A DNA stretch of 64,000 bases. Source: an uncultured Sporosarcina sp. Its GTDB lineage: Bacteria; Bacillota; Bacilli; Bacillales_A; Planococcaceae. The notes beneath the pieces were generated by a model, which worked only from the letters and a program-made list of their open reading frames with translations, had not been told where the DNA came from and did no database searches. How positions within the stretch are numbered: the first letter of the stretch is position 1; every line of letters begins with the position of its first letter. This document shows positions 7,252-27,961 of this stretch, in pieces. The stretch lies in NCBI GenBank assembly GCA_948469885.1, contig CAOKMT010000002.1:1-64000 (forward strand), given 5' to 3'. Position numbers and translations under genes: made by a program.

Positions 7252-7264
7252 TAAGTGAATGGCA

Positions 7265-7299: not shown

Positions 7300-7633
7300 G
7301 TGCTTTAAATCAAATTTATGATTGCTTATTTCAATATAAAACACGAACGTTATAATTATTTTTAACGTTACAATTCTCCTGTAAAGGATGCTCTGTTGAT
7401 TGGAGCGGACATCAACATTGTTCGTATTTTTAAGGAGTATAGCTGATTATGAAATTGACTCCTTTAAAATACATATAAGCTTTTAGTTTCGTAACTTGAA
7501 CTTGCATTTTGCGGTCGATCCTACTATATCCGCAAATGGATTGCTACAATGAAATATCAATAATAAAGAAACAATAAAATCAGATTTTAAATGAAAAAGG
7601 CGTGCTAGATTATACATACGGGAGGCGTTCGCG
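7300..7633 (+). other. Intergenic region with two inverted repeats upstream of the second two-component operon
   Basis: No gene seen. AACGTTA (7346-7352) is repeated inverted as TAACGTT (7363-7369). Further on, TTTTTAAGGAGT (7427-7438) pairs with ACTCCTTTAAAA (7458-7469) with one mismatch. Either could be an operator or leader hairpin for the regulator gene at 7634. Confidence 0.4.
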
Positions 7634-8335: not shown

Positions 8336-9804
8336 AAATAAAAACATGGCTGTTGTCTTCTTATTTGATTGTCATGATTCTCCCGCTTATGACAGCCTAT
8401 TTATTGTTTGCGTGGATCCATTCATACAACAATGATCAAAAAGTGAAAGAGTTTATTATGACTTCAGCTGAATTGTCGAATATCAAATCTGTGTTGGATA
8501 ATCCGTCGCTCTATACGGTGCATGGAGAACAGCCGGAAGTGGACCAGCTTATCAGTGATCAAGTGTCCGTTGTCCTTTACAACGAAGATGGGTTCGTCAT
8601 ATATTCTTCGGTTCCTGTGGCGCAGCCCGTTTCGGGCAAGGAAAGATTGTTTAAAGATTTATATACACTGGATCAAGGTTTTCGTACTTACACGTATAAG
8701 CAGCCTGTGTTTAACGGAAGTAGATTGGCCGGATTTTTTCAAGTGGAGCTTGCCCGCGATACTTGGGTGTCAGGCGTCTCGGACAGGACTTGGCTCACAT
8801 TCGGTCTATTCATCGCTCTGTTTTTATCGATCTACGCTGCGGTCATTTTATTTGTGAATCGAAAGCTGAACCGGCGACTTGTCCGTTTAAAGGAAGAGAT
8901 GACTGCATTTGCAGAAGGACAGCAGTTTGAGGAATCCGAGACGAATAAGGATGAAATCGGCGAATTACAACAGCATTTTTATAATATGAAGCATCAGATT
9001 GATACGGCGAGAGAAGTGATCGACAAGGAACAGCGGGCAAAAGAGTATATGATTGCGACGATTTCCCATGATTTGAAAACACCGCTGACGTCCATCCGTG
9101 CTTATGCAGAGTCTTTAGATGTCAATGAAAACTTATCTTTACAAGAACAAAGTGAGTACCGGAAAGTGATTGTGGAAAAGTCGAATTTCATGAAACAAAT
9201 GTTGGATGATTTATTAACGTATACGCTGCTGCAATCTACGACTTATGAAATGGAATTTGTGGAAGTGGAGGGCGGCGAGTTTTTCGATATGCTTGTGTCG
9301 GATTATGAGCCTTTATGCAAGGAAAAAGGAATTTCTCTTCATGTGCATGCAGATGTGCAAGGAATGTATGAAGTGAATCCAAAACAGATGATGCGTGTCG
9401 CTGATAATTTGATGAGCAACGCGATTCAGCATACGGATCGTAACGGAGAAATAGGGATTGCTGCGTTGTCGGAGAATGTGGAGCGGCTTCCATGGCTATT
9501 TGATTTTGTGACATTTGCGCATCCATTCGATTTTGATGGCTATATGTATTTCATTGTCCAAAATGGGGGAAAAGGGATTGCGCAAACGGAGCTGAACAAA
9601 TTGTTTGATCCGCTGTTCCAAGCGGATGAGTCGAGAAATAAGCGTGATGCGAAAGGGACTGGATTGGGTTTAAGCATTACAAAACAGATTATAGAAAAGC
9701 ACGGCGGCAACGTTCAGATTCTTTCGGAAACAGGGACCGGAACATGTATCATTTGCCGTCTGCCAAAAATAAAAGGAAAAGGTGAGTGTCTTGAAAGGGA
9801 TTAA
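8332..9804 (+). CDS. Sensor histidine kinase
   Basis: 490 residues. TM1 (about 5-28) and TM2 (about 150-172) enclose an extracytoplasmic domain of about 120 residues, followed by HAMP. The H-box reads TISHDLKTPLTSIRAYAESL. The ATPase domain has the N box (NLMSNAIQHT) and G2 box (GTGLGLSITKQI); between them is a longer than usual insertion (about 385-405, rich in aromatic residues), and the usual DxGxGI G1 box is changed to QNGGKGIAQ. The altered G1 box may affect nucleotide binding, though such variants occur in active kinases. The 3' end overlaps the next gene by 14 bp. Confidence 0.9.
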   Translation: MKIKTWLLSSYLIVMILPLMTAYLLFAWIHSYNNDQKVKEFIMTSAELSNIKSVLDNPSLYTVHGEQPEVDQLISDQVSVVLYNEDGFVIYSSVPVAQPVSGKERLFKDLYTLDQGFRTYTYKQPVFNGSRLAGFFQVELARDTWVSGVSDRTWLTFGLFIALFLSIYAAVILFVNRKLNRRLVRLKEEMTAFAEGQQFEESETNKDEIGELQQHFYNMKHQIDTAREVIDKEQRAKEYMIATISHDLKTPLTSIRAYAESLDVNENLSLQEQSEYRKVIVEKSNFMKQMLDDLLTYTLLQSTTYEMEFVEVEGGEFFDMLVSDYEPLCKEKGISLHVHADVQGMYEVNPKQMMRVADNLMSNAIQHTDRNGEIGIAALSENVERLPWLFDFVTFAHPFDFDGYMYFIVQNGGKGIAQTELNKLFDPLFQADESRNKRDAKGTGLGLSITKQIIEKHGGNVQILSETGTGTCIICRLPKIKGKGECLERD

Positions 9805-10876
9805 ACGAATGGGTGTAACGGTTGTACTCGCACTAGGGCTATTCGGTTGTGCGTATGAAGGAAGTCAGTATTCTCCAGAGCAAGTGATTCAAAACGCCAT
9901 GGAAGAAGTGGCAACGGTGGGCGCCTATTATTCAGAAGAGAAAATTGTCTCTATTGAAAATGGGGAAGAGACGGAGCGCTTCGTGATTAAAACTTGGCAC
10001 GGGGAAGACGGTAAAATAAGAACTGAAATGGAAAATGAAGACGGCGGGGACAAAACAATTTCCGTAAATGATGGTGCTTCGTTCACGACTTATTTTGTCG
10101 ACCAAAATGAAGTGTCGATCTTCGAAGATCCAGAACATTCATTTACACAACCTTCACCGAAAGAACAAGCGAGTTTTTTGCTGGAAACGATTAAAGATAC
10201 ACATTCATTATCGGTAAAAGGAACAGAAGAAGTGGCAGGTCGGACGGCTTACCATCTCGTGGCGAAAGCAAATGAAGAAAATGCATTATTGGGAGATTTG
10301 GAAGTTTGGGTAGATGAAGAGAATTGGATGGTTTTGAAAACAATTTCCAAGACTGCCGATATGGAAGTAGAGGCGGTTTATACGAAGATTGATTTTGAGA
10401 TGGAAATCCCATCGACGGTATTTACGCTTGAACTTCCAGATGATGTGAAAGTCCAAAACTTGGATGATCTTTATAAAACGACTGAACTGTCATTAGAAGA
10501 GGTTGCACAGGTGACGGGGAATCCTACCCTTCATTTTCCAGCAGTTGAAGGAATGGACATTTCAAAGATTGAAAGTTTTGAAATGGAAGGCGAAGTTGCA
10601 CGTAAAGAAGTGAGTATTGAGTATGAGAAGGAAGGGCTTCCTTTATTGACGCTTTCCATATTTCAATCATCAGAAGAGATAGAAGAAATTGACACACTTC
10701 CGGGAGAAAAAACAGCAGAAATCCGAGGACAGAAAGGCGGGACAATGGAATTTGGTGATTTTCGAGCAGTCACTTGGCAAGAAGGTGGGCTCAGTTATTC
10801 AATCATCATAGTAGATCCGAACTTAACGTTGGAAGAAGTGATTGAATGGGCAGCGGAAATGGAATTGATTGAGTAA
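9791..10876 (+). CDS. LolA-like lipoprotein with C-terminal DUF4367-like domain (copy 1)
   Basis: 361 residues. TTG 9791 is preferred over GTG 9782: it gives MKGIKRMGVTVVLALG followed by the lipobox LFGC, parallel to its paralogue at 11192, and AAGGTG precedes it. The middle (about 40-220) resembles LolA/YdcC-type lipoprotein-sorting folds, with a characteristic VWVDEENWMVLK strand. The last about 100 residues look like DUF4367 (FRAVTWQEGGLSYSIIIVDP, then an EEVIEWAAEMEL helix). It should be anchored outside the membrane. It overlaps the kinase gene, so it is part of the two-component operon and could be its sensor partner or output. Confidence 0.8.
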   Translation: MKGIKRMGVTVVLALGLFGCAYEGSQYSPEQVIQNAMEEVATVGAYYSEEKIVSIENGEETERFVIKTWHGEDGKIRTEMENEDGGDKTISVNDGASFTTYFVDQNEVSIFEDPEHSFTQPSPKEQASFLLETIKDTHSLSVKGTEEVAGRTAYHLVAKANEENALLGDLEVWVDEENWMVLKTISKTADMEVEAVYTKIDFEMEIPSTVFTLELPDDVKVQNLDDLYKTTELSLEEVAQVTGNPTLHFPAVEGMDISKIESFEMEGEVARKEVSIEYEKEGLPLLTLSIFQSSEEIEEIDTLPGEKTAEIRGQKGGTMEFGDFRAVTWQEGGLSYSIIIVDPNLTLEEVIEWAAEMELIE

Positions 10877-10913
10877 GTAAGGCGGTGAGATGACGAGTGG
10901 AGGAATATTCTAA

Positions 10914-11195
10914 ATGGGACTCTTACTTGATTTGTTTAACTTGATCGCTTATGGAATATTTTTGAAAGAAGTGAAGGAGGAAAAGATAGGGAGAAATATT
11001 GAGTTTCTAAAAAGATATGGTTGGTTTCAAAAGTGCCTTGCCAATGACGAATTGAGAGAACTCATTATCCATGATGCCGATGTTCGTCTAGTGATCGGGA
11101 AGTGTAATAGAAAGAAAATGAAACGACGTTTTTACCGTCGGAAATACCAGAAGAAAATTTATAAAGTGCTAATGAAAAAAGGTGGGGTATCTTGA
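10914..11195 (+). CDS. Small basic hypothetical protein between the two lipoproteins
   Basis: 93 residues, family not recognised. The N-terminus (about 1-18) is hydrophobic and the C-terminal half is strongly basic (KKMKRRFYRRKYQKK). GTGGAGGAAT lies about 8 bases before the ATG, and its stop overlaps the start of the next lipoprotein gene by 4 bp. Spacing and coupling support it as a real gene in the operon. It might bind the membrane surface or nucleic acid; there is no direct evidence for either. Confidence 0.6.
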   Translation: MGLLLDLFNLIAYGIFLKEVKEEKIGRNIEFLKRYGWFQKCLANDELRELIIHDADVRLVIGKCNRKKMKRRFYRRKYQKKIYKVLMKKGGVS

Positions 11196-12286
11196 AAGCA
11201 ATTAAGCGAATAGGAATGACAGTTGTGCTCGCAATGGGATTAGTTGGCTGTACCTCTGAAGGGAACCAGTATTCCCCAGAGCAAGTCGTCCAAAATGCAT
11301 TGAAGGAAACGACGGAGATGGGCGCTTATTATGCAGAATATGAAATGACGATTAGTGAAATGGGGCAAGAAATAGAGCGGGCTTTCACGAAAGAATGGCG
11401 GAGTGACGATGGGAAGATTAGATTGGAAACGGGAAATGAGGATGGTTCGGACAAAATGATTGCTGTGAACGATGGCAAGTCCTATACGATGTATCAAGTC
11501 GATCAGAAGCAGGCATTCAGTTTTGAAAGTGCGGAAGGTGAATTATTGAATGTCCCTTCACAGATGCAACAGGCTGAACAATTACTCACACTAATCGGTG
11601 ACACGCATACGATTTCGATTGAAGGGGAAGAGAAAGTCGCGGGTCGCGCCACTTATCATCTCGTTGCGAAAGCGACTGAGAAGAGCACAGTGCTTGGTGA
11701 CCAAGAGTTGTGGGTCGATAAAGAAAATTGGATGCTCTTGAAGTCGGTCTCAAATACGGGGGATATTATAATCGAAATGACGTATGTCAATATTGACTTT
11801 AACCGTGAAATCCCAACTGAAACTTTTACAGTTGAGCTTCCGGATGATGTAGAGGTGCAAATTGGGGATGGGATGGCGAATCTGACGGAGGTCACATTGG
11901 AAGAAGCCGCTGAAAATATCGAGATGCCATTCTTCTACTTTCCAGAAGCGGAAGGGATTGCAATCGATAAAATTGAAATGACGGAGCTAGGAGGCGAGTT
12001 GCAGCGAATAGAAGTGAATCTTGAATATACAAAAGACGATTTACCGCTTCTCACGCTTACAGTGTTTCGGTCGCCGGAAGATGATGAGGGGAAGGATGAT
12101 TTAACAATCCCTGGGGAGACGTCTGTCATGCTACGAGGTTTGGAAGGCTCCAAACTGGAAATGAATGATTTCCGTACGTTGTTCTGGCAAGAGGGCGGAT
12201 TCAACTACTCCATCGTGCTGATTGATCCCAATCTGACTTTTGATGAATTGATCGATATGGCAGAAGAGATGGAATTGGTCGAGTAA
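11192..12286 (+). CDS. LolA-like lipoprotein with C-terminal DUF4367-like domain (copy 2)
   Basis: 364 residues, clearly paralogous to the protein at 9791 along its whole length (shared NQYSPEQVVQNAL-type start, LWVDKENWMLLKS strand and C-terminal FWQEGGFNYSIVLIDPNLTF). TTG start after GGTGGGG. Signal peptide ends in the lipobox LVGC. The first half probably adopts a LolA/YdcC-like sheet that holds hydrophobic ligands. Last gene of the operon that starts at 7634. No clear terminator follows. Confidence 0.8.
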   Translation: MKAIKRIGMTVVLAMGLVGCTSEGNQYSPEQVVQNALKETTEMGAYYAEYEMTISEMGQEIERAFTKEWRSDDGKIRLETGNEDGSDKMIAVNDGKSYTMYQVDQKQAFSFESAEGELLNVPSQMQQAEQLLTLIGDTHTISIEGEEKVAGRATYHLVAKATEKSTVLGDQELWVDKENWMLLKSVSNTGDIIIEMTYVNIDFNREIPTETFTVELPDDVEVQIGDGMANLTEVTLEEAAENIEMPFFYFPEAEGIAIDKIEMTELGGELQRIEVNLEYTKDDLPLLTLTVFRSPEDDEGKDDLTIPGETSVMLRGLEGSKLEMNDFRTLFWQEGGFNYSIVLIDPNLTFDELIDMAEEMELVE

Positions 12287-13910: not shown

Positions 13911-13962
13911 AACACTCCGCATCTAAGGGTTCAGTTCACCTTTCCGATGCGGGGTGTTTTTT
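13911..13962. terminator. Bidirectional terminator between the toxin gene and the sigma-54 activator
   Basis: AACACTCCGCATC (13911-13923) pairs with GATGCGGGGTGTT (13946-13958). T-runs follow on the plus strand and, on the minus strand, after GTG (from the AAAAA before 13911). Confidence 0.85.
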
Positions 13963-15346
13963 ATAATTCTTGTATTTTTTTAACGAGGAGGTCCTGGCAA
14001 TGCTCCCGAATCAATCTGGATGCTCTCGACTGACTAATATCAAGATCTTTCGCCACGCCTCGGGAAGAGGGATGCCTTTGGTAAGATTCTCGTATAAAAG
14101 ACCGTGTCACTTCTTTTAACGCATTATCTAAAGAATTTGCGTGGACGATTTGTGGGATATTTTCCGTATTCTCCAAGATGACTTGTGGTAAGTCCGCGAC
14201 TTGAATCGTCTCGTCACTGACGATGACAAGGCGTTCAATTAAGTTCTCAAGTTGCCTGATGTTCCCCGGCCAAGAATAGTAGTACAGCACATTCAGGCAT
14301 TCTGGTGAAATATCTTTGTTCATATTGTATTTGGCATTGAATTTATTTAAAAAACTGTATATGAATGGCACAATATCTTCTTTGCGTTCCCTAAGTGGTG
14401 GCGTTTGGATGTCAATTACATTCAAACGGTAAAACAAATCTTCCCGGAAGCATTTATTTTCCACCATTTCCTGTAAGTTTTGATTCGTTGCAGTAATAAT
14501 GCGGACATCCACTGTTTTGCTTTCATTGCTACCAATCGGGATAAACTGTTTATCTTGGATCACTTGCAATACTTTCGCCTGCAGGGGTAACGCCAACTCT
14601 CCGATCTCATCTAAAAAAATCGTCCCTTCATGTGCGGCTTCAAATAGCCCCTTTTTCCCCGTTTTCGACGCCCCTGTAAATGCGCCACCTATATAACCGA
14701 ATAGTTCTGACTCCAATAGTTCTTCCGGAATGGCTGCACAATTGATCGTCAAGAAGGGAGCATCTTTTCTTTGGCTGATGCGATGTAGATAATATGCCAA
14801 TACCCCTTTACCTGTTCCGGATTCCCCTTGGATTAAAATCGTAGAATTGGTGGGCGCAACTTTATTACAAAAGTTAAGAATGTTCCGGAATTTCTCGTTG
14901 TTCGTCACCATTGGGTCCGAAGGTTCTGTTTCTGCTCTCGTCAGTTCTTCAGATTCTTTTTTGGCAATAAGTCTTTTAAAACTTTGTAATTCAGTGGAGG
15001 TGATGAAGACAAACTCAATTTCTTGTTCATCGTTTAAAATAGGAACAGCCGTTGTCAGTAATTCAGCACCGATATAAGTTTGTTGTTTCAAATAGACTGT
15101 TTCTTTTTGAGCAAAGACTTCCGGCACGATGGATGGCTTCCAGTATCCTTTTTCAAACAATTCATCGTTTAATTTCCCCAATAACTCATCTTGTTTAAGC
15201 CCATAATGTTTTTCGCTATTCCGGTTCACATAGACAATTTTCTTTTCGCTATCCAGTACATAAATTTCATCGGAAGAATAGTCTAGCATTCTTAAAATCG
15301 ATTCTAAAGTAATTTCTGCCTTTTTCGTGACTGAATGATTATCCAC
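13961..15346 (-). CDS. PAS-containing sigma-54-dependent transcriptional activator
   Basis: 461 residues. A PAS domain (about 12-125) probably senses a small molecule. The AAA+ domain has Walker A GESGTGKG (174-181), the sigma-54 contact loop GAFTGA (221-226), Walker B GTIFLDEIG and the arginine finger segment FREDLFYRLNV. The C-terminal helix-turn-helix (about 425-455, SSRGVAKDLDISQSRASRL) is TyrR-like rather than Fis-like. It is transcribed away from an operon that has a perfect -24/-12 promoter, with a candidate enhancer of TyrR-box geometry between them. It is therefore almost certainly the activator of the Rieske operon. Confidence 0.95.
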   Translation of the reverse strand: MDNHSVTKKAEITLESILRMLDYSSDEIYVLDSEKKIVYVNRNSEKHYGLKQDELLGKLNDELFEKGYWKPSIVPEVFAQKETVYLKQQTYIGAELLTTAVPILNDEQEIEFVFITSTELQSFKRLIAKKESEELTRAETEPSDPMVTNNEKFRNILNFCNKVAPTNSTILIQGESGTGKGVLAYYLHRISQRKDAPFLTINCAAIPEELLESELFGYIGGAFTGASKTGKKGLFEAAHEGTIFLDEIGELALPLQAKVLQVIQDKQFIPIGSNESKTVDVRIITATNQNLQEMVENKCFREDLFYRLNVIDIQTPPLRERKEDIVPFIYSFLNKFNAKYNMNKDISPECLNVLYYYSWPGNIRQLENLIERLVIVSDETIQVADLPQVILENTENIPQIVHANSLDNALKEVTRSFIRESYQRHPSSRGVAKDLDISQSRASRLIREHCQDLLVKKIQEL

Positions 15347-15375
15347 ATTGTTCCCCTCCTAATCTTTTTAAAAAG

Positions 15376-15425
15376 TGAGTCTATTTTGAATAATAGTATG
15401 TATTGAGTGAGTCAATGAAGACTCA
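15376..15425 (+). promoter_or_regulatory. Candidate upstream activator sequence for the sigma-54 activator
   Basis: TGAGTC-N6-GACTCA forms a perfect inverted repeat at 15408-15425. A third copy of TGAGTC at 15376-15381 lies exactly 32 bp (three helical turns) upstream of the first arm. The 6-N6-6 geometry equals that of TyrR boxes, matching the TyrR-type HTH of the divergent regulator. The palindrome centre lies about 70 bp upstream of the -24 element, as expected for an enhancer. Confidence 0.65.
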
Positions 15426-15486
15426 GAAAGAGCTATTTAAAATAAAATTATTTTTGCAAATGCCGAAAATCCAAGCTTTTTAAAAG

Positions 15487-15503
15487 TTGGCACGGGAGTT
15501 GCA
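15487..15503 (+). promoter_or_regulatory. Sigma-54 (-24/-12) promoter of the Rieske oxygenase operon
   Basis: TTGGCACGGGAGTTGCA matches the sigma-54 consensus TGGCAC-N5-TTGCA at every position. The GG (15489-15490) and GC (15501-15502) dinucleotides are separated by exactly 10 bp. Transcription should start near 15513, leaving a leader of about 180 nt before the first gene. Confidence 0.92.
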
Positions 15504-15695
15504 ATTAGAGATAAGTGACGAGGCAAAGCACGTATTCTTGCTTTGGCCTTTAATTCTAACATTAAACTGATTGTAAAGAAATATGTGACATTTGAGTGGT
15601 TTAACAAACGTAAAAGAGGTGATTTTGAAAAAACAGGAGAAACCCGAAGCGCTTATGAGCGGATGAGCGTTAAACAATATTCAGGAGGAATCGAA

Positions 15696-17013
<1,318 letters not shown>

Positions 17014-17154
17014 TATAAAAGTCATCTATCAGTCGCTTACTGCGAATAAATTAAGGAACACATTTGTATGGTTTTTATTTGAGAGTTTGACAATAGAGAA
17101 CTCAACTTTGTTCCGATGATGAAATTAAAAAAATATGAATTGGGGGATTATAAA

Positions 17155-18246
17155 ATGGCTTACAACAAAGTGGAAAACGCAACGAACAGAACATTCGAAA
17201 GAACGATGACGTACGACATGTATACAGATCCGAAAGTATTGGACAAAGAAATGGAGTTAGTGTTCTCGAAGTCGTGGCAACTCGTTGGTCACGTTAGCCA
17301 AGTGGAAAAACCGGGGGAGTTTTTCACAGCGGAAGTAGCAGAGGAACCGATCATCATTATGAGAGGTACGGACGGTGTCTTGCGTGCTTTTTATAACGTC
17401 TGTCCACACCGTGCCACGAAACTGGAAAGAAGCGAGTCAGGCAAAAAGAAAATTTTACAATGCATGTATCATGGTTGGACGTTTAAAACGGATGGGAAAT
17501 TGAACAAAGCCCCTAACTTCCGCGGGGAAGAGGCGGCATGTGTGCAAGATGCTTGCTTACGATCCATTCGTATGGAAGTCATCGAGTCTTTAATTTTCGT
17601 CAACTTGGACGATCAAGCGACGCCGCTGATCGAGTCATACGGAGATTTCTTCGATCGCTTGAGCGAGTTTCCATTTTTAAGCGAATTAAAAAGAACGCAT
17701 CGCAAAACGCGTCATATTAAAGCGAATTGGAAAGCGTATATCGATAATTATTTGGAGTGTGACCACTGTCACGTTGCGCACCCAAGCTTTGTCGATACGC
17801 TGGATATGAAAGACTATCAAATTATTACGTGTGAAAATTACTCTATCCAAGGAACGGTCGTGAAGCCTGATAAGCAATACGGTGAAGTTGATTTGAATAA
17901 GGCGGAAATGCAAGGAGGTTCATTCTTCTGGTTGTGGCCGAACTTAATGTTGACCTTTTACCCAGGACCGGGAAATATGGCTTCTATTGAAATGATCCCA
18001 GTTGATGCCAACAACTCGATCGCTGTGTACACTTATTACTTCCGCGAAGACAGTTTAGATAAACTGACGCAAGAAGAAAAGGATCTGATGACATTTGCAG
18101 AACAAGTACGTGCGGAAGATATCGAACTTGTGGAATTGGAACAAATCGGTTTCCGTTCACGTGCATTTAACAAAGGGCGATATTCTTCTTCAGAACAGGC
18201 GATCGTACAATTTCATGACATGATGTTGGAGGCACTCGATGAATAA
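17155..18246 (+). CDS. Rieske non-heme iron oxygenase alpha subunit, probable quaternary-amine (carnitine-type) monooxygenase
   Basis: 363 residues. The Rieske 2Fe-2S ligands are C83, H85, C103 and H106 (CPH and CMYH motifs). The mononuclear iron ligands are H204, H209 and probably D322 (AEDIELVE). The residue bridging Rieske and iron sites between subunits is Glu201 in YLECDHCHVAHP. Ordinary ring-hydroxylating dioxygenases have Asp there, whereas carnitine monooxygenase CntA has Glu205, His208, His213 and Asp323, nearly the same spacing. Family members cleave carnitine, glycine betaine, choline or stachydrine. With an aldehyde dehydrogenase and BCCT transporter in the operon, carnitine to trimethylamine plus malic semialdehyde is my first guess; choline or betaine are alternatives. 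ATG 17155 follows GGGGGAT. Confidence 0.88.
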   Translation: MAYNKVENATNRTFERTMTYDMYTDPKVLDKEMELVFSKSWQLVGHVSQVEKPGEFFTAEVAEEPIIIMRGTDGVLRAFYNVCPHRATKLERSESGKKKILQCMYHGWTFKTDGKLNKAPNFRGEEAACVQDACLRSIRMEVIESLIFVNLDDQATPLIESYGDFFDRLSEFPFLSELKRTHRKTRHIKANWKAYIDNYLECDHCHVAHPSFVDTLDMKDYQIITCENYSIQGTVVKPDKQYGEVDLNKAEMQGGSFFWLWPNLMLTFYPGPGNMASIEMIPVDANNSIAVYTYYFREDSLDKLTQEEKDLMTFAEQVRAEDIELVELEQIGFRSRAFNKGRYSSSEQAIVQFHDMMLEALDE

Positions 18247-19690
18247 AATAGCGACTGAGCACCAAGTGGAGAAAAAGCATTTATTCATAAACGGGGAAAG
18301 GGTAGAGGCGGCAAGCTATGCCTCTCTCTACGCCCCGTATTCAGAAGAGAAAATTGCAGCGGTTGCAATGGCGGATGAACAGTTGACGAAGCGAGCAATC
18401 GATGCGGCCTATGAGGCTCAAGAAGTGATCGGCGACATGCCAGCTTTCGAGCGAGCGAAAATACTAGAAAAAGTCGTTGAATTACTTAAAGAACGTGCAG
18501 AGGAAGCAGCAAAAATCATTGCGCTTGAATCATCCAAACCGATGATGTTCGCGAAAGCGGAAGTTGACAGAACGATTGAAACGTATAAATTTGCTGCTGA
18601 AGAAGCGAAGCGAATTCAAGGGGAAATGATTCCGTTCGACGCCGCGAGTGGCGGTGTGGGAAGGATCGGTTATACGTTGAGAGAATCGATTGGAGTCATT
18701 GGGGCAATTACGCCGTTTAACTTTCCGTTAAATCTTGTCGCCCATAAAGTTGGTCCTGCAATTGCAGCAGGTAATTCGATTGTGTTGAAACCGGCTTCGC
18801 AAACACCGCTTTCGGCATTTTTCATCGCAGATCTATTTGAAGCAGCGGGTCTTCCGGCAGGTGTCCTCAATGTCGTGACAGGTCCCGGAAGCATTGTAGG
18901 TGATCAGATTGTACAAGATGACAGAGTGAGTATGGTTACCTTCACGGGAAGCCCAAGCGTGGGGACCGAGATTAAGAAAAAAGCGGGATTGAAAAAAACG
19001 ACGTTGGAGTTAGGGTCCAATGCTGCGCTTATCATCGACAAAGACATTGAAATCGATAGACTCCTAGACCGTTGTACAATGGGCGCTTTTTCGAATCAAG
19101 GACAAGTGTGCATCTCGTTGCAACGGGTGTATGTCCATGAGCAATTATATGATGAATTTATTGAAAAATTTGAACGGTCAGCGCGGCGGTTAAAGCTCGG
19201 AGATCCGCTCGATGAGGATACATATGTCTCATCGTTGATTGCGAAAGAAGAGTTGGAAAGGTCACTTCTTTGGATTGAGGAGGCGAAGCAAAATGGCGCG
19301 GAAGTTATTGCTGGCGGAAAGGTGCAAGGCAATGTGCTTGAACCGACGATCATTGTTAATGCGGATCGGGGATTGAAAGTGTCGTGCCAAGAAGTTTTCG
19401 CACCGCTCGTCGTTGTTAATTCAGTGACATCAGTGGAGGAAGCGGTGAACCTTGTGAATGACTCCCGCTTCGGTTTACAGGCGGGGATTTACACAAATAA
19501 TGTCAAACACGCTTTATACGCTTCTAAAAAGTTGCATGTCGGCGGGGTCATCATTAATGATGTACCGACGTATCGAGTTGACCAAATGCCTTATGGGGGC
19601 GTCAAGGATAGTGGGACAGGACGTGAAGGGGTGAAGTATGCAGTTGAAGAGATGACGGAGATGAAACTCGTTGTTTGGAATGAAGAATAA
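18239..19690 (+). CDS. NAD(P)-dependent aldehyde dehydrogenase
   Basis: 483 residues, full length for the ALDH superfamily. Catalytic Cys291 (GQVCISLQ), general base Glu257 (TLELGSNAAL), Asn161 (TPFNFPLN) and the cofactor loop FTGSPSVGTEI are present. It resembles the lactaldehyde/glyceraldehyde-type branch more than classical betaine aldehyde dehydrogenases. It overlaps the oxygenase gene by 8 bp with GGAGG before the ATG, so the two are translationally coupled. It would oxidise the aldehyde released by the oxygenase; for carnitine that is malic semialdehyde to malate. Confidence 0.9.
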   Translation: MNKIATEHQVEKKHLFINGERVEAASYASLYAPYSEEKIAAVAMADEQLTKRAIDAAYEAQEVIGDMPAFERAKILEKVVELLKERAEEAAKIIALESSKPMMFAKAEVDRTIETYKFAAEEAKRIQGEMIPFDAASGGVGRIGYTLRESIGVIGAITPFNFPLNLVAHKVGPAIAAGNSIVLKPASQTPLSAFFIADLFEAAGLPAGVLNVVTGPGSIVGDQIVQDDRVSMVTFTGSPSVGTEIKKKAGLKKTTLELGSNAALIIDKDIEIDRLLDRCTMGAFSNQGQVCISLQRVYVHEQLYDEFIEKFERSARRLKLGDPLDEDTYVSSLIAKEELERSLLWIEEAKQNGAEVIAGGKVQGNVLEPTIIVNADRGLKVSCQEVFAPLVVVNSVTSVEEAVNLVNDSRFGLQAGIYTNNVKHALYASKKLHVGGVIINDVPTYRVDQMPYGGVKDSGTGREGVKYAVEEMTEMKLVVWNEE

Positions 19691-19972
19691 GGAGTCAAAA
19701 TATGCTATAATTCTACTTCGAACGTTGATTCTATCGAATTTATGAATGTTGGTATGTGTTTCATACGCAGGCGTCAATCGCATAACGAAGGGTCCAATTT
19801 TGTATCATATTCTACCAACTCTGAGGTGATTATTAGATCACCTTGGGGCTTGGTGGAAAATCTCCTCTAGTGTCGCCGCGTCAACAAGAAATTTTGATCC
19901 CATACTATTCAGACGTTCACCACAAATGATGGAGGGCTCTCTCCATAACTGAATATTAACAGGAGGGTTTGC
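19691..19972 (+). other. Gap between aldehyde dehydrogenase and BCCT transporter genes
   Basis: No gene seen. Two inverted repeats lie here: AGGTGAT (19824-19830) with ATCACCT (19837-19843), and ATGGAG (19929-19934) with CTCCAT (19941-19946), the latter just before the ribosome binding site of the transporter. No -24/-12 element or clear terminator was found, so the transporter may be read from the upstream operon or from an unrecognised promoter. Confidence 0.4.
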
Positions 19973-21604
19973 ATGAATGGCAAGAAAACTGTGCTGTATT
20001 TTTCACTGGCCGCCAGTTTGGCCTTAATCAGTGTTGGTATATTTGCTCCGAATCAATTGGAGATGTTCTCTAATTCCGCACTTTCATTTATCTACAATCA
20101 TCTGGGCTGGTTCATTTTAGGAAGCGTTTTTACTTTTTTCATTTTTTGTATGTATCTTGGCCTTTCTAAATTTGGACATATCCGGTTAGGGGATGACGAT
20201 GATCGTCCCGAATATAAAACAGCTACTTGGATTGGCATGTTGTTTAGTGCTTCCATCGGGATTAGCCTTGTCTTTTGGGGTGTAGCGGAACCGGTTTCTT
20301 ATTATATTGATCCGCCATATGGTCAAGGGTCATCGGAACAATCAGCTAAACTCGCGATGCAATTTGTCTATTTGCATTGGGGCGTATCCGCTTGGGCTTG
20401 TTACGCAGTCGTAGGTGTCTCTCTAGCCTTTTTTCAATTTAGGAAAAAGCTTCCATCCTCTTTAAGCTCCGTTTTTTATCCTTTGCTAGGAGACAAAGTG
20501 AAAGGTTCTTTCGGCAAGTTTATCGATGTCGTTGTCATCCTTTCGATTGTCATTGGTATTGCGACGTCACTAGGTTTTGGAACATTACAAGTGAACAGTG
20601 GCATGAACTACTTATGGGGGCTGCCCGTCAGTTTTTCCACGCAAGCGATTATTATCTTGATTATCAGTCTAATTTACGTCGGTTCTACCGTTTCAGGACT
20701 TCAAGGAGCGATGAAACATTTATCGAATCTGAATATGTTGCTTGCGTTTGCTTTATTAGCTTTTGTGTTATTTCTCGGACCGACACAAACGATATTTCAA
20801 ATCTTTTTCCAAGGCATTAGCGATTACGCACAAAATTTTGTCGGGATGTCATTCCGAACGGAGCCGTACGGTGATGGATCTTGGATAGCGAGTTGGACAT
20901 TGTTCTACTTCGGTTGGTGGATTGCTTGGGCACCACTTGTTGGTAGCTTTGTAGCTAGAATTTCAAAAGGCAGAACGATTAAAGAATTTATGATGGGCGC
21001 TATTTTTATCCCTGTCCTTGGTTCGTTCTTCTGGTTTGCAGTGATGGGTGGCTCAGCCATTGCCCTCATACAAAATGCGGGTCAAACTGCGCTTGCGACA
21101 GCTGTATCAGCAGATGTCACTTCGGCGCTGTTTAAGTTTTTTGATTACTTTCCGATGAGTGTGTTTTTAAGCGTTTTAGCAATGGTCCTTGTGCTTATTT
21201 TCTTTATCACTTCAGCGAATTCGGCTGTTTTTGTATTAGGAATGATCAGTGAAAATGGGAATCCGAATCCTTCTCATTTTACAAAAGTTGTTTGGGGCAT
21301 CGTCATTGCGATCATCGCGGCAGTATTAATTATGACGGGTGGATTGGCAGGTTTACAGTCGATTCTTGTGGCCACCGCAATCCCACTGGCTATTTTGTTA
21401 CTCTTCATATGTTATTCCACATACCTAGGGTTGAAGGACGAATTGGCATCTCCTCGGACTGAGAAAAGTAAAGAGATCCAAGAAACAAAGAGAGTCGAAG
21501 AGCCAGAACGAAAAGAAAGCAAAGGGTTACAAGATGAATTGGTCCTTTCTATTTCCAAAAAGAAGAAAGCGCCTAAAAAATCGGTCGTCAACGTACCGAA
21601 GTAA
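19973..21604 (+). CDS. BCCT-family quaternary ammonium transporter
   Basis: 543 residues, 12 TM segments, with a charged C-terminal tail of about 70 residues (KSKEIQETKRVEEPERKESK) that may sense osmotic or ionic conditions. The aromatic box of the family is kept: W, W and Y in LHWGVSAWACY (TM4) and FYFGWWIAWAPLVG (TM8). The glycine stretch of TM3, AGMGIGL in sodium-coupled betaine carriers, reads ASIGISL here, a change in a region that sets substrate and coupling. AACAGGAGGG precedes the ATG. It probably imports the substrate of the upstream oxygenase. Confidence 0.92.
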   Translation: MNGKKTVLYFSLAASLALISVGIFAPNQLEMFSNSALSFIYNHLGWFILGSVFTFFIFCMYLGLSKFGHIRLGDDDDRPEYKTATWIGMLFSASIGISLVFWGVAEPVSYYIDPPYGQGSSEQSAKLAMQFVYLHWGVSAWACYAVVGVSLAFFQFRKKLPSSLSSVFYPLLGDKVKGSFGKFIDVVVILSIVIGIATSLGFGTLQVNSGMNYLWGLPVSFSTQAIIILIISLIYVGSTVSGLQGAMKHLSNLNMLLAFALLAFVLFLGPTQTIFQIFFQGISDYAQNFVGMSFRTEPYGDGSWIASWTLFYFGWWIAWAPLVGSFVARISKGRTIKEFMMGAIFIPVLGSFFWFAVMGGSAIALIQNAGQTALATAVSADVTSALFKFFDYFPMSVFLSVLAMVLVLIFFITSANSAVFVLGMISENGNPNPSHFTKVVWGIVIAIIAAVLIMTGGLAGLQSILVATAIPLAILLLFICYSTYLGLKDELASPRTEKSKEIQETKRVEEPERKESKGLQDELVLSISKKKKAPKKSVVNVPK

Positions 21605-22793: not shown

Positions 22794-24326
22794 ATGGAAA
22801 CGAAAAGAACAGGTTTTTTCCAAAAGTTTCTCAATATAGTGGAAACGACAGGAAATAAACTGCCGCATCCGGTTACATTGTTTGCGGGGCTTGCATTATT
22901 AGTGATCATTGTCTCATGGATTGTGTCCATGTTCGGGGTCAGTGTGGAGCACCCTGGACAAGCGGGTGAAATGATTACGGTAAAAAACTTGCTGAGCGCT
23001 GAAGGGATCGAATATATATTTACCCAAATGACTCAAAACTTTGTCGGGTTTGCACCACTTGGGGTTGTGCTCGTCACAATGTTGGGTATTGGGCTAGCAG
23101 AAGGCACGGGATTGATCAGTGCATTGCTCCGCGGATTTGTCTTATCTGTACCAAAAAGACTAATTACACTCGGACTTGTGTTTGCAGGTGTAATGTCCAG
23201 TGTCGCTTCTGATGCAGGATATGTTGTTTTGCCACCACTTGGGGCGGTTATATTCGCTGCGATCGGTCGTCATCCGCTTGCTGGCTTGGCTGCTGCCTTC
23301 GCAGGCGTCTCTGGGGGGTTCAGTGCGAACCTTTTCTTGTCGGGCACAGATGCGTTACTCGGTGAGTTGACGATTGCCGCAGCTGCCATCATTGATCCGA
23401 CCTATGCAGAAAACATGAATATTGCCATGAACTATTACTTTATTATGGTGTCGGTCATTGTCTTGACGTTTGTTGGTGCATGGGTAACAGAAAAAATTGT
23501 CGAACCACGTCTTGGAGAATACACGGGTGAATTCCGTGAAAAACTTGAAAAGTTAACGTCAGTGGAGAAAAAGGGGTTGCTATGGGCAACTATTTCTGTC
23601 GTTGTCACTGGGGTTCTTGTTTCTTTATTGATCTTACCAGAATGGGGACCGCTGCGCGGTGTCGAGGGTGAGATGCCGATCATCCGCTCGCCATTCATGA
23701 GTTCGTTAGTTCCGATTATTGCTTTACTATTCTTTGTCCCTGGACTTGTTTATGGAAGAGTGACGAAAGGGATTCGAGATGATAAAGATGTAGCGGCGAT
23801 GATGTCGGCGACGATGGCTTCGATGGGGATGTTCATCGTGCTATCTTTCACGGCGGGACAGTTCGTCGCATTTTTCTCTGAATCGAATATGGGGCTTGTT
23901 ATCGGTGTATACGGAGCCCAATTCTTAGAGAGTATTAATTTGACGGGAATTCCGCTTTTGTTGGTCTTCATTTTAATCGCCGCATTTATTAACTTGTTTA
24001 TCGGAAGTGCATCAGCAAAGTGGGCCATGATGGCGCCAGTTTTCGTTCCGATTATGATGCAGCTTGGCTACTCGCCTGAATTGACACAAATGGCGTATCG
24101 GGTTGCCGATTCGGCGACGAATATCATTTCGCCACTCATGACATACTTTGCGATTATTATTGCATTCGCGCAAAAGTACGATAAAAAGATGGGAATCGGA
24201 ACACTCATTTCCGTCATGTTCCCATACAGTATCTTTTTCTTAATCTTCTGGACGGCGACACTCATCGTCTGGATGTTACTCGGAATCGATCTTGGGCCTG
24301 GATCAGGCATCTACTATACAAATTAA
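22794..24326 (+). CDS. AbgT-family transporter
   Basis: 510 residues, multi-TM. The N-terminal VETTGNKLPHPVTLF segment and two re-entrant hairpin regions (VASDAGYVVLPPLGAV and FIGSASAKWAMMAPVFVP) are characteristic of the AbgT family. Members take up p-aminobenzoyl-glutamate or export antifolates. GGAAGGAG precedes the ATG. An inverted repeat TGAATA-N10-TATTCA (22749-22770) lies just upstream and might be an operator. No peptidase gene accompanies it, unlike abgAB-abgT. Confidence 0.9.
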   Translation: METKRTGFFQKFLNIVETTGNKLPHPVTLFAGLALLVIIVSWIVSMFGVSVEHPGQAGEMITVKNLLSAEGIEYIFTQMTQNFVGFAPLGVVLVTMLGIGLAEGTGLISALLRGFVLSVPKRLITLGLVFAGVMSSVASDAGYVVLPPLGAVIFAAIGRHPLAGLAAAFAGVSGGFSANLFLSGTDALLGELTIAAAAIIDPTYAENMNIAMNYYFIMVSVIVLTFVGAWVTEKIVEPRLGEYTGEFREKLEKLTSVEKKGLLWATISVVVTGVLVSLLILPEWGPLRGVEGEMPIIRSPFMSSLVPIIALLFFVPGLVYGRVTKGIRDDKDVAAMMSATMASMGMFIVLSFTAGQFVAFFSESNMGLVIGVYGAQFLESINLTGIPLLLVFILIAAFINLFIGSASAKWAMMAPVFVPIMMQLGYSPELTQMAYRVADSATNIISPLMTYFAIIIAFAQKYDKKMGIGTLISVMFPYSIFFLIFWTATLIVWMLLGIDLGPGSGIYYTN

Positions 24327-24333
24327 GCAAATC

Positions 24334-24368
24334 AACACCTTGGACAGCAATCGTTCAAGGTGTTTTTT
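24334..24368 (+). terminator. Intrinsic terminator after the AbgT transporter
   Basis: AACACCTTG pairs with CAAGGTGTT, followed by six Ts at 24362-24367. Confidence 0.88.
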
Positions 24369-24434
24369 GTTTGGAAGCTTGCGGAGGATTTTCTACTTCT
24401 AGATATGTAATTTTAAGAAAAATTAAAAATATGA

Positions 24435-24463
24435 TTGACAGAAAACGAAATGCTTGGTAAATT
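24435..24463 (+). promoter_or_regulatory. Sigma-A promoter of the oligopeptide importer operon
   Basis: Perfect TTGACA at 24435-24440, 17-bp spacer, TAAATT at 24458-24463. The binding-protein gene starts 80 bp downstream. Confidence 0.75.
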
Positions 24464-24481
24464 GTCACTAGTCGCTAATAA

Positions 24482-24494
24482 CCTAGTTAACAGG
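24482..24494 (+). promoter_or_regulatory. CCTAGTTAACRGG element, copy 1
   Basis: CCTAGTTAACAGG lies about 20 bp downstream of the -10 box. The same element, CCTAGTTAACGGG, recurs before the second binding-protein gene at 26213-26225. It contains the palindrome GTTAAC inside CC...GG. Either an operator or a relic of the gene duplication. Confidence 0.4.
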
Positions 24495-24543
24495 TAGGTA
24501 TAATATAAGTTTAGAGGAAAATGAGAGAAGAAGGGGTTGCAAA

Positions 24544-26154
24544 ATGCATAAGAAGGTTCGCTATCCATTTATACTATTCATTATAAGTTTGTTATCAATT
24601 GTAGGATTGGCCGGCTGCAGCGATGCGGGAACTAATGATGCCGTTAAAGACACTAAAAACGAAGCAGCAGGGGAACCAGTAACAAGTGGTACGCTGGAAG
24701 TTGCCATTGCATCAGATCCAGACACGATTGATTGGATGTACACAGGTGCCACAGTGACGAGAGACGTTGGCTGGCATATTTTCGAAACATTGTTTGCGTT
24801 GGATAAAGATTTTGCGACAAAGCCGATGATTGCAGAAGGGTTTGAAACGAACGATGAGGGAACTGTTTATACGATCAAACTTCGTGATGACGTGAAGTTT
24901 CATAATGGTTCGGTTGTGACCGCGGATGATGTAGTCGCTTCGCTGGAAAGATGGCGTAAAGTTTCCGCTGTCGGTGGGATTGCTGGCAACTATATCGAAG
25001 ATGTAAAGGTTATTTCAGATGTAGAGTTAGAAATTAAACTAAATGAACCTTATAGTTCGTTGTTGGCAGACATGTCTGCTCCCAAACAAGCGCTTATGAT
25101 TATTCCGGCTGAAATTGCGGAAGAAGCTGGTGAACAGCCGTTAGTTCCTGAACAACTTATTGGAACAGGCCCTTATCAATTTGAAAAATGGGAACGGGGA
25201 AATGAGATTTTGCTGACTCGGTTTGATGATTACGCAGCTCGTGAAGAAACAGATTGGGGCGGTTTAACAGGAGAGAAAATCGCCTATTACGAAGAACTCA
25301 AATTTCTCATTGTCAAGGATCCACAAGTAAGAGTGAATGGACTAAAAACGGGGTTGTATGACTATGCAGAAAACATTTCACCCGATTTGTACGAAGTTTT
25401 GGAAAGTACACCTAATATTGATTTAGTTACCTATATGAATGGGTATTCAACGGTAATTTTCGATAAGTCCGAAGCGCCATTTGATGACTTGAAAGTGCGT
25501 CAAGCGTTAAACCACGCACTTGATAAAAAGACAATCGCCGCAGCAACATATGGCAATGAACAATTTTACAGTTTTGATGGGGCACTTTTTGTGCCTGAAC
25601 AAACCGCACTCTACTCGGATAAAGGATTCGATCAATACTTGGCGTTTGACCAAGAAAAAGCAAAAAGTCTTTTAGAAGCGTCCAATTACAACGGCGAGCC
25701 GATTACAATTATGTACTCCAATAATAGTGAGAACTACAAAAAAATCTCGCAAATCGCAAAACAACAATTGGAGGAAGTTGGGTTCCAAGTGAAGTTAGAC
25801 CCTTACGAGTGGGCAACGTACCTTGAAAGATGGCAAGATCCTGCCAATTGGGACTTGGTCGTTGTTGGCTGGTCTACCCGATTTTCACCAAATGAGTTAG
25901 GGATGCTTGGGTTGGGCACTGCAAGCAGTGGGTGGTATGACAGTGAGCAGTGGGCAGACTCAGTGGCTCGTTGGGGAGTAGTCGAAACAGAAGAGCAGAA
26001 AAAAGAAGTGTTGACAGAGATGAACCAAATTGTCAATGATGAACTTCCATTTTTGAAAGTGGCCAACGAAACGCGACTTGATATAAAAAGTAATAAAATC
26101 ACTTATGATAGCTGGCTCGGTCAACGTCATTGGAACACATGGAAGAATGAATGA
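24544..26154 (+). CDS. Oligopeptide ABC transporter substrate-binding lipoprotein (copy 1)
   Basis: 536 residues, SBP family 5 (OppA/DppA). The lipobox LAGC ends a signal peptide at about residue 26. The conserved YTIKLRDDVKFHNGSVVTADDV family signature is seen around residues 100-120. It is about two-thirds identical by eye to the next gene. GAAGAAGGGG precedes the ATG. It captures peptide or similar substrates outside the membrane for the permease/ATPase genes at 27962-31869. Confidence 0.93.
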   Translation: MHKKVRYPFILFIISLLSIVGLAGCSDAGTNDAVKDTKNEAAGEPVTSGTLEVAIASDPDTIDWMYTGATVTRDVGWHIFETLFALDKDFATKPMIAEGFETNDEGTVYTIKLRDDVKFHNGSVVTADDVVASLERWRKVSAVGGIAGNYIEDVKVISDVELEIKLNEPYSSLLADMSAPKQALMIIPAEIAEEAGEQPLVPEQLIGTGPYQFEKWERGNEILLTRFDDYAAREETDWGGLTGEKIAYYEELKFLIVKDPQVRVNGLKTGLYDYAENISPDLYEVLESTPNIDLVTYMNGYSTVIFDKSEAPFDDLKVRQALNHALDKKTIAAATYGNEQFYSFDGALFVPEQTALYSDKGFDQYLAFDQEKAKSLLEASNYNGEPITIMYSNNSENYKKISQIAKQQLEEVGFQVKLDPYEWATYLERWQDPANWDLVVVGWSTRFSPNELGMLGLGTASSGWYDSEQWADSVARWGVVETEEQKKEVLTEMNQIVNDELPFLKVANETRLDIKSNKITYDSWLGQRHWNTWKNE

Positions 26155-26212
26155 CGTTAAACAGGAGGCTCCATCAGTAGACACTAAAGTAACAATTCTT
26201 TTATGTTAATAC

Positions 26213-26225
26213 CCTAGTTAACGGG
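26213..26225 (+). promoter_or_regulatory. CCTAGTTAACRGG element, copy 2
   Basis: CCTAGTTAACGGG, 12 of 13 bases identical to the copy at 24482. It lies 72 bp upstream of the second binding-protein start. No strong promoter precedes it here. Confidence 0.4.
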
Positions 26226-26284
26226 TGTGAATAATAAGGGATTGCTCAAGCGTAAGAACATGAATGAGGGAGATGGAAATAGAA

Positions 26285-27886
26285 ATGAAAAAGAGTTTCT
26301 ATTTATGTACAGTCATTGGATTGCTGCTAATGCTCGGCTTGGCCGGCTGTGCTCAGGAAGGGGCAGGTCCAACAGGGAAAGAAGAGGAGAGCCAGGCGAA
26401 GGGAGAACCGACAAAGGGCGGCACGTTTGAAGTGGCCCTCGCGTCCGAGCCAGATACGCTTGATTGGATGTATATTAGCGCCACGGTAACAAGAGATGTC
26501 AGTTGGCATATTTTTGAAACTTTATTTGCATTGGATCATGACTTTGCTATAAAACCGATGATTGCAGAGAAATATGAAACGAATGAAGAGGAAACAGTTT
26601 ATACAATTACGCTCCGCGAAGATGTGAAGTTTCATAACGGTGCCGTTGTAACAGCCGCCGATGTAGTGGCATCGGTTGAACGGTGGAGAAAGATCTCTTC
26701 AATCGGCCAGGCAGCAAGTGAGTATATCGATGAAGTGGTAGCCACTTCAGATACGGTACTTGAAATCAGACTAAAAGAACCTTATAACGCATTGATGGAT
26801 GATATCGCGGCATCGAAATCAGCGCTTATGATCATCCCAGCGGAAATTGCAGAAGCTGCAAATGAACAGCCGCTCCTACCTGAACAAATTGTCGGCACAG
26901 GTCCTTATCAGTTTGAAAGTTGGGACAGAGGCAAGGAAATCGTGTTATCGCATTTCGAAGAATATTCTTCTCGTACAGAAACAGATTGGGGTGGATTGAC
27001 GGGAGAAAAAGTCGCTTATTACGATGAACTCAAATTCCTGATCGTCAAAGATCCGCAAGTCAGAATGAACGGACTAAAAACGGGTTTGTACGATTATGCT
27101 GAAAATATTTCACCTGACTTGTACGAAGTATTGGAAAGCTCACCAAACATTGACAGAGTCACCTATATGAATGGTTACTCTACAATCACGCCCAATAAAG
27201 CGAAAGCGCCATTTGACGATTTGAAGGTGCGCCAAGCATTGAACCACGCGTTGGATAAAAAAACAATTGCAGAAGCGACCTATGGGAATGAAGCATTTTA
27301 TAGTTTGGATGGCGCGTTATTTGCTCCAGAACAAACAGAACTTTATTCGGAAGAAGGGACCGATCAATATTTAGCGTATGATCCGGAAAAGGCGAAAAGC
27401 CTTCTAGCAGACTCGAACTATAATGGCGAGCCAATTACGATCATGTTCTCCAATGACAACGAAAACTATAAAAAAATCGCCCAAGTTGCCAAACAGCAAA
27501 TGGAGGAAGTTGGCTTTAAAGTCGAGTTGGATCCCTATGAATGGGGCACATATTTGGAAAGATGGCTCGAGCCTGAAAACTGGGATTTGGTTGTCATCGG
27601 TTGGTCCACCCGTTTTTCTCCAAATGAATTAGGTCTACTCGTATTAGATACCGCAAGAAGTGGATGGTATGACAGTGACCGTTGGGCAGAAGCGATCGAA
27701 CGTTGGGGAGCAGCACGGTCATCCGAAGAGAGAAAAGAAATCCTGACAGAAATGAATCATACGGTGAACGATGAACTGCCATTCTTCAAAGTTGTGAATG
27801 AAACACGGCTCGATATAAAAAGTGACAAAGTCACATATGACAGCTGGCTTGGCCAACGCCATTGGAATACATGGAAAAGTGAATGA
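26285..27886 (+). CDS. Oligopeptide ABC transporter substrate-binding lipoprotein (copy 2)
   Basis: 533 residues, paralogue of the preceding gene along its full length (same DTLDWMYISATVTRDV start of the mature domain and the same WLGQRHWNTWK C-terminus). Signal peptide with lipobox LAGC. ATG 26285 is used because MKKSF begins a proper signal peptide and GGGAGATGG precedes it; ATG 26264 would add seven residues. Tandem duplication inside one importer operon suggests two substrates sharing one permease. Confidence 0.92.
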   Translation: MKKSFYLCTVIGLLLMLGLAGCAQEGAGPTGKEEESQAKGEPTKGGTFEVALASEPDTLDWMYISATVTRDVSWHIFETLFALDHDFAIKPMIAEKYETNEEETVYTITLREDVKFHNGAVVTAADVVASVERWRKISSIGQAASEYIDEVVATSDTVLEIRLKEPYNALMDDIAASKSALMIIPAEIAEAANEQPLLPEQIVGTGPYQFESWDRGKEIVLSHFEEYSSRTETDWGGLTGEKVAYYDELKFLIVKDPQVRMNGLKTGLYDYAENISPDLYEVLESSPNIDRVTYMNGYSTITPNKAKAPFDDLKVRQALNHALDKKTIAEATYGNEAFYSLDGALFAPEQTELYSEEGTDQYLAYDPEKAKSLLADSNYNGEPITIMFSNDNENYKKIAQVAKQQMEEVGFKVELDPYEWGTYLERWLEPENWDLVVIGWSTRFSPNELGLLVLDTARSGWYDSDRWAEAIERWGAARSSEERKEILTEMNHTVNDELPFFKVVNETRLDIKSDKVTYDSWLGQRHWNTWKSE

Positions 27887-27902
27887 AGTTGTCACTTTGC
27901 AT

Positions 27903-27934
27903 AGCCCGTTAGCGATGATGTCTAGCGGGCTTTC
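27903..27934 (+). terminator. Hairpin between binding protein and permease genes
   Basis: AGCCCGTTAG (27903-27912) pairs with CTAGCGGGCT (27922-27931), followed by a short TTTC run. Probably a leaky terminator or mRNA-stabilising hairpin that lets binding proteins exceed the permease subunits. Confidence 0.7.
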
Positions 27935-27961
27935 TTCATCAAATAGTTGCGGGGAGGGAAA

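Follow-up and report, generated by a model that had tools for sequence, protein, structure and literature searches.

A probable carnitine oxidation operon of Bacilli with separately encoded electron carriers

The operon and its distribution

The stretch analysed here, the first 64,000 nucleotides of contig CAOKMT010000002.1 from an uncultured Sporosarcina sp. (assembly GCA_948469885.1; hereafter the window), carries at 13961–21604 a six-gene unit that is probably an inducible, aerobic catabolic operon of Bacilli for L-carnitine, and probably also for gamma-butyrobetaine, in which sequence features point to a CntA-like Rieske oxygenase fed by a ferredoxin-NADP reductase (FNR) and a ferredoxin. 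A first-pass annotation, made from the sequence alone, had proposed a sigma-54-controlled quaternary-amine oxidation system at this place, and our reading of the open reading frames (ORFs) recovers its six genes in the same order and divergent layout: a minus-strand gene for a PAS-AAA+ sigma-54-dependent activator (13961–15346), followed on the plus strand by genes for a TrxR-like FNR of the FNR2/YumC type (347 aa; 15696–16739), a [4Fe-4S]-type ferredoxin (82 aa; 16765–17013), a Rieske oxygenase that is probably a carnitine monooxygenase (363 aa; 17155–18246), an aldehyde dehydrogenase (ALDH; 18239–19690) and a quaternary-amine transporter of the BCCT family (19973–21604). The starts given for the FNR, ferredoxin and oxygenase genes are refined ones; a ribosome-binding-site-like sequence lies 5′ of each of the six genes, and the ALDH gene begins 8 bp before the oxygenase gene ends. 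The genome is a draft of 3.59 Mb in 225 contigs, 88% complete, and the nearest named relatives of the window's oxygenase belong to Sporosarcina and Bhargavaea.

Gene content, promoter sequence, family membership, conservation and the lack of CntB at the loci compared are read from the sequences themselves; the substrate, products, electron order and inducer of the operon we infer as follows. The BCCT protein would import carnitine, and the Rieske oxygenase would receive NADPH electrons by way of the YumC-type FNR and then the [4Fe-4S]-type ferredoxin, in place of CntB. The oxygenase would then oxidise the carbon adjoining the quaternary nitrogen, so that trimethylamine and malic semialdehyde are set free; the second of these would be converted to D-malate by the ALDH; and a dehydrogenase of the D-malate/tartrate family—linked to the operon in 38 of the 40 loci described below, and here perhaps represented by a homologue on contig 24—would yield pyruvate and CO2. 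Expression would be switched on at a sigma-54 promoter by the PAS-AAA+ activator, upon its sensing either the substrate or the redox state.

The operon recurs in Bacillaceae and their relatives. A protein scan of genome contigs returned 62 loci, of which the 38 from Bacillota, together with one Priestia megaterium plasmid locus and the window, make up the 40 loci compared throughout; several represent strains of a single genus, and the set cannot be treated as independent. All 40 have the oxygenase and 39 the ALDH; the linked dehydrogenase has a homologue in 38, that of L020 being a fragment. An activator homologue of more than 45% identity occurs in 37 and one of 40–42% in two more; one locus, L048, is cut by a contig end. 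The other 24 of the 62 loci lie in other phyla, at 22–38% identity, and no comparable neighbourhood was found in them, only an isolated regulator or ALDH match in L059 and L062. Within the window's own family, an oxygenase match at E 1e-60 was obtained in 24 of 261 genomes; in 19 the match is of this type (at least 66% identity), so the trait is patchy there. Eight loci with paralogous oxygenases (40–46% identity) carry neither the linked dehydrogenase (0/8) nor an ALDH above 36% identity (0/8), so that both genes travel with this particular oxygenase; a ninth paralogue, at the edge of L012, was left out of the contrast. Sporosarcina sp. P2 has the operon twice, full-length at L014 and broken at L020 (7465–12087).

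Oxygenase family and active site

The oxygenase has the Rieske motifs CPHR (at residue 83) and CMYH (at 103) and the mononuclear-iron ligands His204, His209 and Asp322, lies above the Pfam cut-offs for PF00355 and PF00848, and finds its best match in the PDB in CntA (6y8j; 2.3e-65). In the numbering of the 363-residue protein, Tyr199, Glu201, Cys202 and Cys205 match CntA along with the iron ligands, so that the four residues singled out in the first-pass annotation (Glu201, His204, His209 and Asp322) are all in place. Ten CntA residues (Tyr203, Glu205, Cys206, His208, Cys209, His213, Phe216, Tyr225, Tyr295 and Asp323) are kept in 45/45 main-clade rows, although these rows are not independent of one another. 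An aromatic residue at position 203 and a bridging Glu205 form the signature of group Va (PMC7948474; here and below, papers are cited for those passages that were accessible), and every row has Tyr and Glu at these positions, together with the cysteine pair of the CntA-type oxygenase, Cys206/Cys209 (PMC10952381).

In a tree of 53 rows, the oxygenase stands with other rows from Bacilli and is joined to YeaW and two proteobacterial relatives at 96/88 support, apart both from the Stc2/GbcA-like rows and from aromatic enzymes; this separation supports the first-pass proposal. Several long branches in this tree were flagged by the tree tool, and its Vb side consists of uncharacterised plasmid proteins, authentic GbcA, Stc2 or choline monooxygenase sequences not being among its references: one of these plasmid proteins (L112) lies beside a gene annotated stc4, and three (L115, L116 and L118) matched the GbcA model below its cut-off. 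By sequence, then, the protein is assigned to the group Va quaternary-amine oxygenases, its nearest neighbour among the references used being the E. coli carnitine monooxygenase YeaW, to which it is 35% identical.

Two other placements within the Rieske family were weighed. An aromatic-ring hydroxylating system, as the generic label "ring-hydroxylating oxygenase subunit alpha" on one relative might suggest, is scarcely credible: the bridging residue is Glu in place of Asp, which together with the tree led us to reject this placement, and no aromatic pathway gene was seen among the operon genes. Very improbable, too, is a group Vb N-demethylase with glycine betaine or proline betaine as its substrate. 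Among NCBIfam models, that for GbcA does give the oxygenase its highest match (152.7 bits; cut-off 670), but E. coli YeaW scores alike (154.3) and matches no CntA model either, so NCBIfam names are uninformative for this protein. The tree sets the Stc2/GbcA-like rows apart, and Tyr instead of Asn occupies position 203 in all 45 rows—an argument to be read with the caution that L118, on the Vb side, also has Tyr there, against a strict Asn rule for group Vb.

Oxygenases from Chloroflexota, Planctomycetota and Balneolota (L042–L047 and L049–L054) keep Tyr203 and Glu205 and have Gly for Cys206 in 12/12 cases; as a guess, these may be choline-type enzymes. Apparent in-frame TGA codons in five relatives were discounted in the four that were re-read (L077, L078, L080 and L081), where the TGAs lie upstream of the likely start.

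Downstream enzymes, transport and the choice of substrate

The best clue to the substrate is the linked dehydrogenase. In Acinetobacter baumannii, L-carnitine is converted by way of malic semialdehyde to D-malate, which D-malate dehydrogenase turns into pyruvate, and this pathway has been reconstituted (PMC11353897); by analogy, the operon in Bacilli would lead from L-carnitine to trimethylamine and malic semialdehyde, and from there through D-malate to pyruvate. Homologues of the L011 dehydrogenase were scored at 11 of the 38 loci, and all 11 (485.8 to 559.3 bits) score above 470.4, the cut-off of the tartrate dehydrogenase model TIGR02089, as does E. coli DmlA (565); the linked dehydrogenases of two of the window's near relatives are 51.5% identical to DmlA.

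The ALDH (Aldedh, 1e-153) is probably a malic semialdehyde dehydrogenase (MSA-DH). ALDH21 and a lactaldehyde dehydrogenase are among its closest relatives of known structure, and the MSA-DH catalytic residues Cys290 and Glu256 (A. baumannii numbering, mapped via E. coli GabD) are kept in 38/38 operon copies. Arg111, in 38/38 copies, and Arg446, in 37/38, align with Arg121 and Arg457 of ALDH21. ALDH21 is reported to oxidise succinic semialdehyde (PMC7823795). The transporter (BCCT, 6e-178) falls under the NF047988 cut-off (586.9 against 650 bits) and exceeds that of TIGR00842 (483.8 against 407.55).

A dedicated dehydrogenase and a BCCT transporter, as first annotated, are thus supported. The complete import-to-malate route that was read from them holds in part: candidate genes for import, oxygenation and aldehyde oxidation are present and the expected product from L-carnitine is D-malate, but the cluster in the window cannot be called complete, because it lacks the D-malate dehydrogenase needed for that product. 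The betaine or choline alternative offered alongside is less likely, since the linked dehydrogenase would then be without a role. A choline monooxygenase in particular, yielding betaine aldehyde and then glycine betaine for osmoprotection, appears improbable; a BCCT-family transporter would suit it, and the plant enzyme is itself a ferredoxin-fed Rieske protein (PMC6157903) of group Va (PMC7948474), but the window's ALDH reaches 346.5 bits against a betaine aldehyde dehydrogenase (BADH) cut-off of 668.6, and relatives carry the D-malate/tartrate-family gene in the operon itself. The tree held no choline monooxygenase sequence. Choline and betaine were accordingly rejected as first choice, the grounds being the linked dehydrogenase and poor scores with the BADH and GbcA models.

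Several observations weigh against the reading proposed here. Four pocket residues of CntA are replaced in 45/45 rows (Phe258→Gly, Asn270→Thr, Tyr315→Ala and Phe319→Val), which leaves the substrate unproven; with the aromatic residue at 203, Glu205 and the cysteines kept, the protein is therefore best described as a group Va enzyme whose ammonium site is CntA-like and whose pocket is otherwise altered. The MSA-DH residues Arg166, Arg284 and Ser447 are replaced, via the GabD mapping, by His (38/38), Ser (38/38) and Arg (37/38) in the operon ALDHs. Eight of the 11 scored dehydrogenases also pass the PRK03437 (3-isopropylmalate dehydrogenase) cut-off of 393, at scores lower than those for TIGR02089, so that the family name does not prove D-malate. 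The linked dehydrogenase is missing from the window's own cluster, one of two exceptions among the 40 loci, and no remnant of it was found in the 282-bp gap there. Its homologue on contig 24 (48% identity), with neighbours that read as a GntR-like regulator, a short-chain dehydrogenase/reductase and another ALDH, reaches 450.5 bits with TIGR02089, short of the cut-off; perhaps it stands in for the missing enzyme, or perhaps the window's route stops at D-malate. Transporter type alternates, with BCCT at 21 of the 40 loci and a sodium:solute symporter at 17, and an adjacent FNR is missing from 16 loci and the ferredoxin from 14.

The pocket substitutions would also fit an alternative that we consider unlikely, in which the reaction is the same but carnitine is turned over as a minor substrate and the main one is a different trimethylammonium or onium compound: gamma-butyrobetaine in the first place, or else D-carnitine, an acylcarnitine or some unknown betaine. 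CntA itself accepts gamma-butyrobetaine (PMC7948474). One of the eight loci with paralogous oxygenases, L139 (6957–16455), from another genus, has the same regulator–FNR–ferredoxin–oxygenase order with a sodium:solute symporter and a thiamine-pyrophosphate enzyme, and has a BADH-like ALDH instead (602 bits; cut-off 668.6); this suggests that oxygenase and dehydrogenase co-vary with the substrate, and that substrate swaps may occur in this architecture. Gamma-butyrobetaine, however, would give succinate, for which a D-malate dehydrogenase would not be needed, whereas 38 of the 40 loci carry a gene of this family.

Electron supply

The reductase (6gas, 5.5e-163; 3lzw, 4.5e-157) is without a CxxC motif and has, in the motif PHST, a C-terminal His at residue 324 that we take to be the FAD-stacking His of the FNR2 type. 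FNR2 enzymes stack a His on FAD (PMC10294844). The ferredoxin, with the pattern CxxCGxC ... CP and cysteines at 12, 15, 18 and 62, is of the Bacillus [4Fe-4S] type (Fer4_13, 1.5e-17; best relative 1iqz, 1.4e-29), and the separate reductase and 4Fe-4S ferredoxin of the first-pass annotation are thereby supported by sequence. In Bacillus, FNR2 (YumC) and 1iqz-type ferredoxin are known as general redox proteins; the window's two carriers are of the same families and are encoded inside the oxygenase operon.

No CntB homologue was found at any of the 40 loci at E 1e-6, so that the syntenic CntB by which CntA has been recognised is absent from them; in the window's genome (88% complete, as noted) the only match, at 27%, falls in an ORF that reads as a flavohaemoglobin. 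An FNR gene adjoins the operon at 24 of the 40 loci, a 25th match being a detached fragment in L033, and the ferredoxin is present at 26: a YumC-type FNR and ferredoxin stand in CntB's place at most of these loci. Further FNR and ferredoxin genes occur in the window's genome, one pair of them near a paralogous oxygenase on contig 3.

On contig 34 of the same genome (L148, about 7071–12074), an FNR–ferredoxin pair also lies beside phenylacetyl-CoA epoxidase genes. PaaA occurs in 56 of the 261 genomes of the family; PaaE passed its cut-off in none of the 261, a result for which no positive control exceeded the cut-off either (E. coli matched only below it), and six of the genomes gave PaaE matches of 108 to 119.5 of the 420.8 bits required. 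Among 30 PaaA loci taken from the 56 genomes (L155–L184), an FNR adjoins PaaA in 20, FNR and ferredoxin together in 14, and neither in 10, and a CntB-like gene was found in 0/30 within the 3.9 kb covered. The occurrence of such pairs beside PaaA as well as beside a Rieske oxygenase suggests a portable cassette.

A broader proposal, which we put forward tentatively and which could fall either way, is that Bacilli often do without one-piece flavin/[2Fe-2S] reductases such as CntB and PaaE, and instead place a portable cassette of YumC-type FNR and [4Fe-4S]-type ferredoxin in unrelated oxygenase operons (group Va Rieske and di-iron phenylacetyl-CoA epoxidase), with the consequence that aerobic conversion of carnitine to trimethylamine in Bacilli has been overlooked, because syntenic cntB has served as a criterion. 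The operon, if read rightly, also suggests a simple annotation rule for orphan oxygenases in Bacilli, which is to seek an FNR–ferredoxin pair rather than a one-piece reductase. The separately encoded proteins also offer material for studies of electron transfer to group V Rieske enzymes.

Activator and promoter

Control of the operon by sigma-54, as first annotated, is supported by sequence features. The divergent gap contains a perfect −24/−12 match, TTGGCACGGGAGTTGCA, on the plus strand at 15487–15503, with the GG-N10-GC core; the activator carries GAFTGA at residue 221 and the Walker A motif GESGTGK; and an RpoN domain (PF04552, E 6e-57) is encoded in the same genome. The PAS-AAA-TyrR-HTH architecture that had been described agrees with Pfam matches to PAS_4 and Sigma54_activat (6e-67), its TyrR-type HTH_50 part being weak (E 5e-4, under the curated cut-off).

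When TGGCAY-N5-TTGC was sought in the 420 bp preceding the first operon gene, it was present at 39 of the 39 loci (of 40) for which the upstream region lay inside the contig, as TGGCAC in 27 and TGGCAT in 12. The background, 133 loci totalling 1.43 Mb on both strands and not including the window, held 31 TGGCAC cores, 26 of them operon ones, and 30 TGGCAT cores, 12 of them operon ones; the TGGCAT form is therefore the less specific. The gene order recurs and every testable locus carries the core, so that the arrangement in the window is not a product of chance. The paralogous oxygenase on contig 15 also has a TGGCAT-type core. The window has one more TGGCAC core, at 3905, which lies inside a response-regulator ORF and was taken as chance.

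Relation to known systems

With the CntA/CntB operon of A. baumannii and dmlA-yeaVWX of E. coli, the operon shares a homologous group Va oxygenase, a BCCT transporter and, in the window's relatives, a DmlA-family dehydrogenase; with the A. baumannii operon it also shares a dedicated ALDH. It differs from the CntA/CntB and YeaWX systems in having a separate YumC-type FNR and [4Fe-4S]-type ferredoxin and no CntB, from the A. baumannii operon in an ALDH without the MSA-DH substrate residues and in a PAS-AAA+ sigma-54 activator in place of the LysR regulator CarR, and from both operons in the absence of a DmlA-type gene from the window's cluster. Supply of a group Va enzyme by ferredoxin has a precedent in plant choline monooxygenase, which, to go by its description, is likewise of group Va and fed by a separate ferredoxin, differing in its choline substrate and its place in chloroplasts (PMC6157903, PMC7948474).

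Related genes in Bacilli have been mentioned before. A 2017 survey of trimethylamine producers left out 34 cntA-like sequences from Bacilli, partly for want of a syntenic cntB (PMC5433236); a 2024 paper names a Sporosarcina newyorkensis operon as a possible maker of substantial trimethylamine (PMC11353897); and Bacillus smithii has been named as a cntA carrier (PMC9508527). The S. newyorkensis operon and the sequences of the 2017 survey, compared here by their mention in print, are possibly the same system, and Sporosarcina relatives carry the window's operon; in the accessible passages of these sources (PMC11353897, PMC5433236) they are not characterised and their electron donors are not named. 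Across the literature searched (titles, abstract openings and passages, with subscription papers mostly outside), no description was found of the unfused electron chain or of its sigma-54 control. The first-pass statement that no description was known is therefore upheld for the unfused chain but does not extend to Bacilli cntA-like genes as such, which are in print (PMC5433236, PMC11353897). The different electron supply may be the reason that Bacilli were left out of the list of trimethylamine producers; if so, it would account for the loose end of the 2017 survey, in which these genes were set aside partly over syntenic cntB, and Bacillaceae and Sporosarcina-type bacteria would join the aerobic carnitine-to-trimethylamine guild.

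Further loci and neighbouring genes

Two loci hold additional oxygenases. At L005 (6799–11630), a second group Va oxygenase (46%) lies with a BCCT transporter resembling CaiT and with a divergently encoded activator of 56% identity; there is no ALDH or D-malate dehydrogenase. At L006 (6008–15146), a third (42%) has its own FNR–ferredoxin pair and, as neighbours, an amino-acid permease, a thiamine-pyrophosphate enzyme, an amidohydrolase-like gene and a CdaR-type regulator.

In the window itself, positions 22794–28909 hold a gene for an AbgT-family transporter, then two similar peptide-binding lipoproteins and an ABC transporter permease gene, with no evident link to the operon. At 9782–12286, two similar lipoprotein-like ORFs of 364 aa, with one small ORF between them, lie behind a two-component system.

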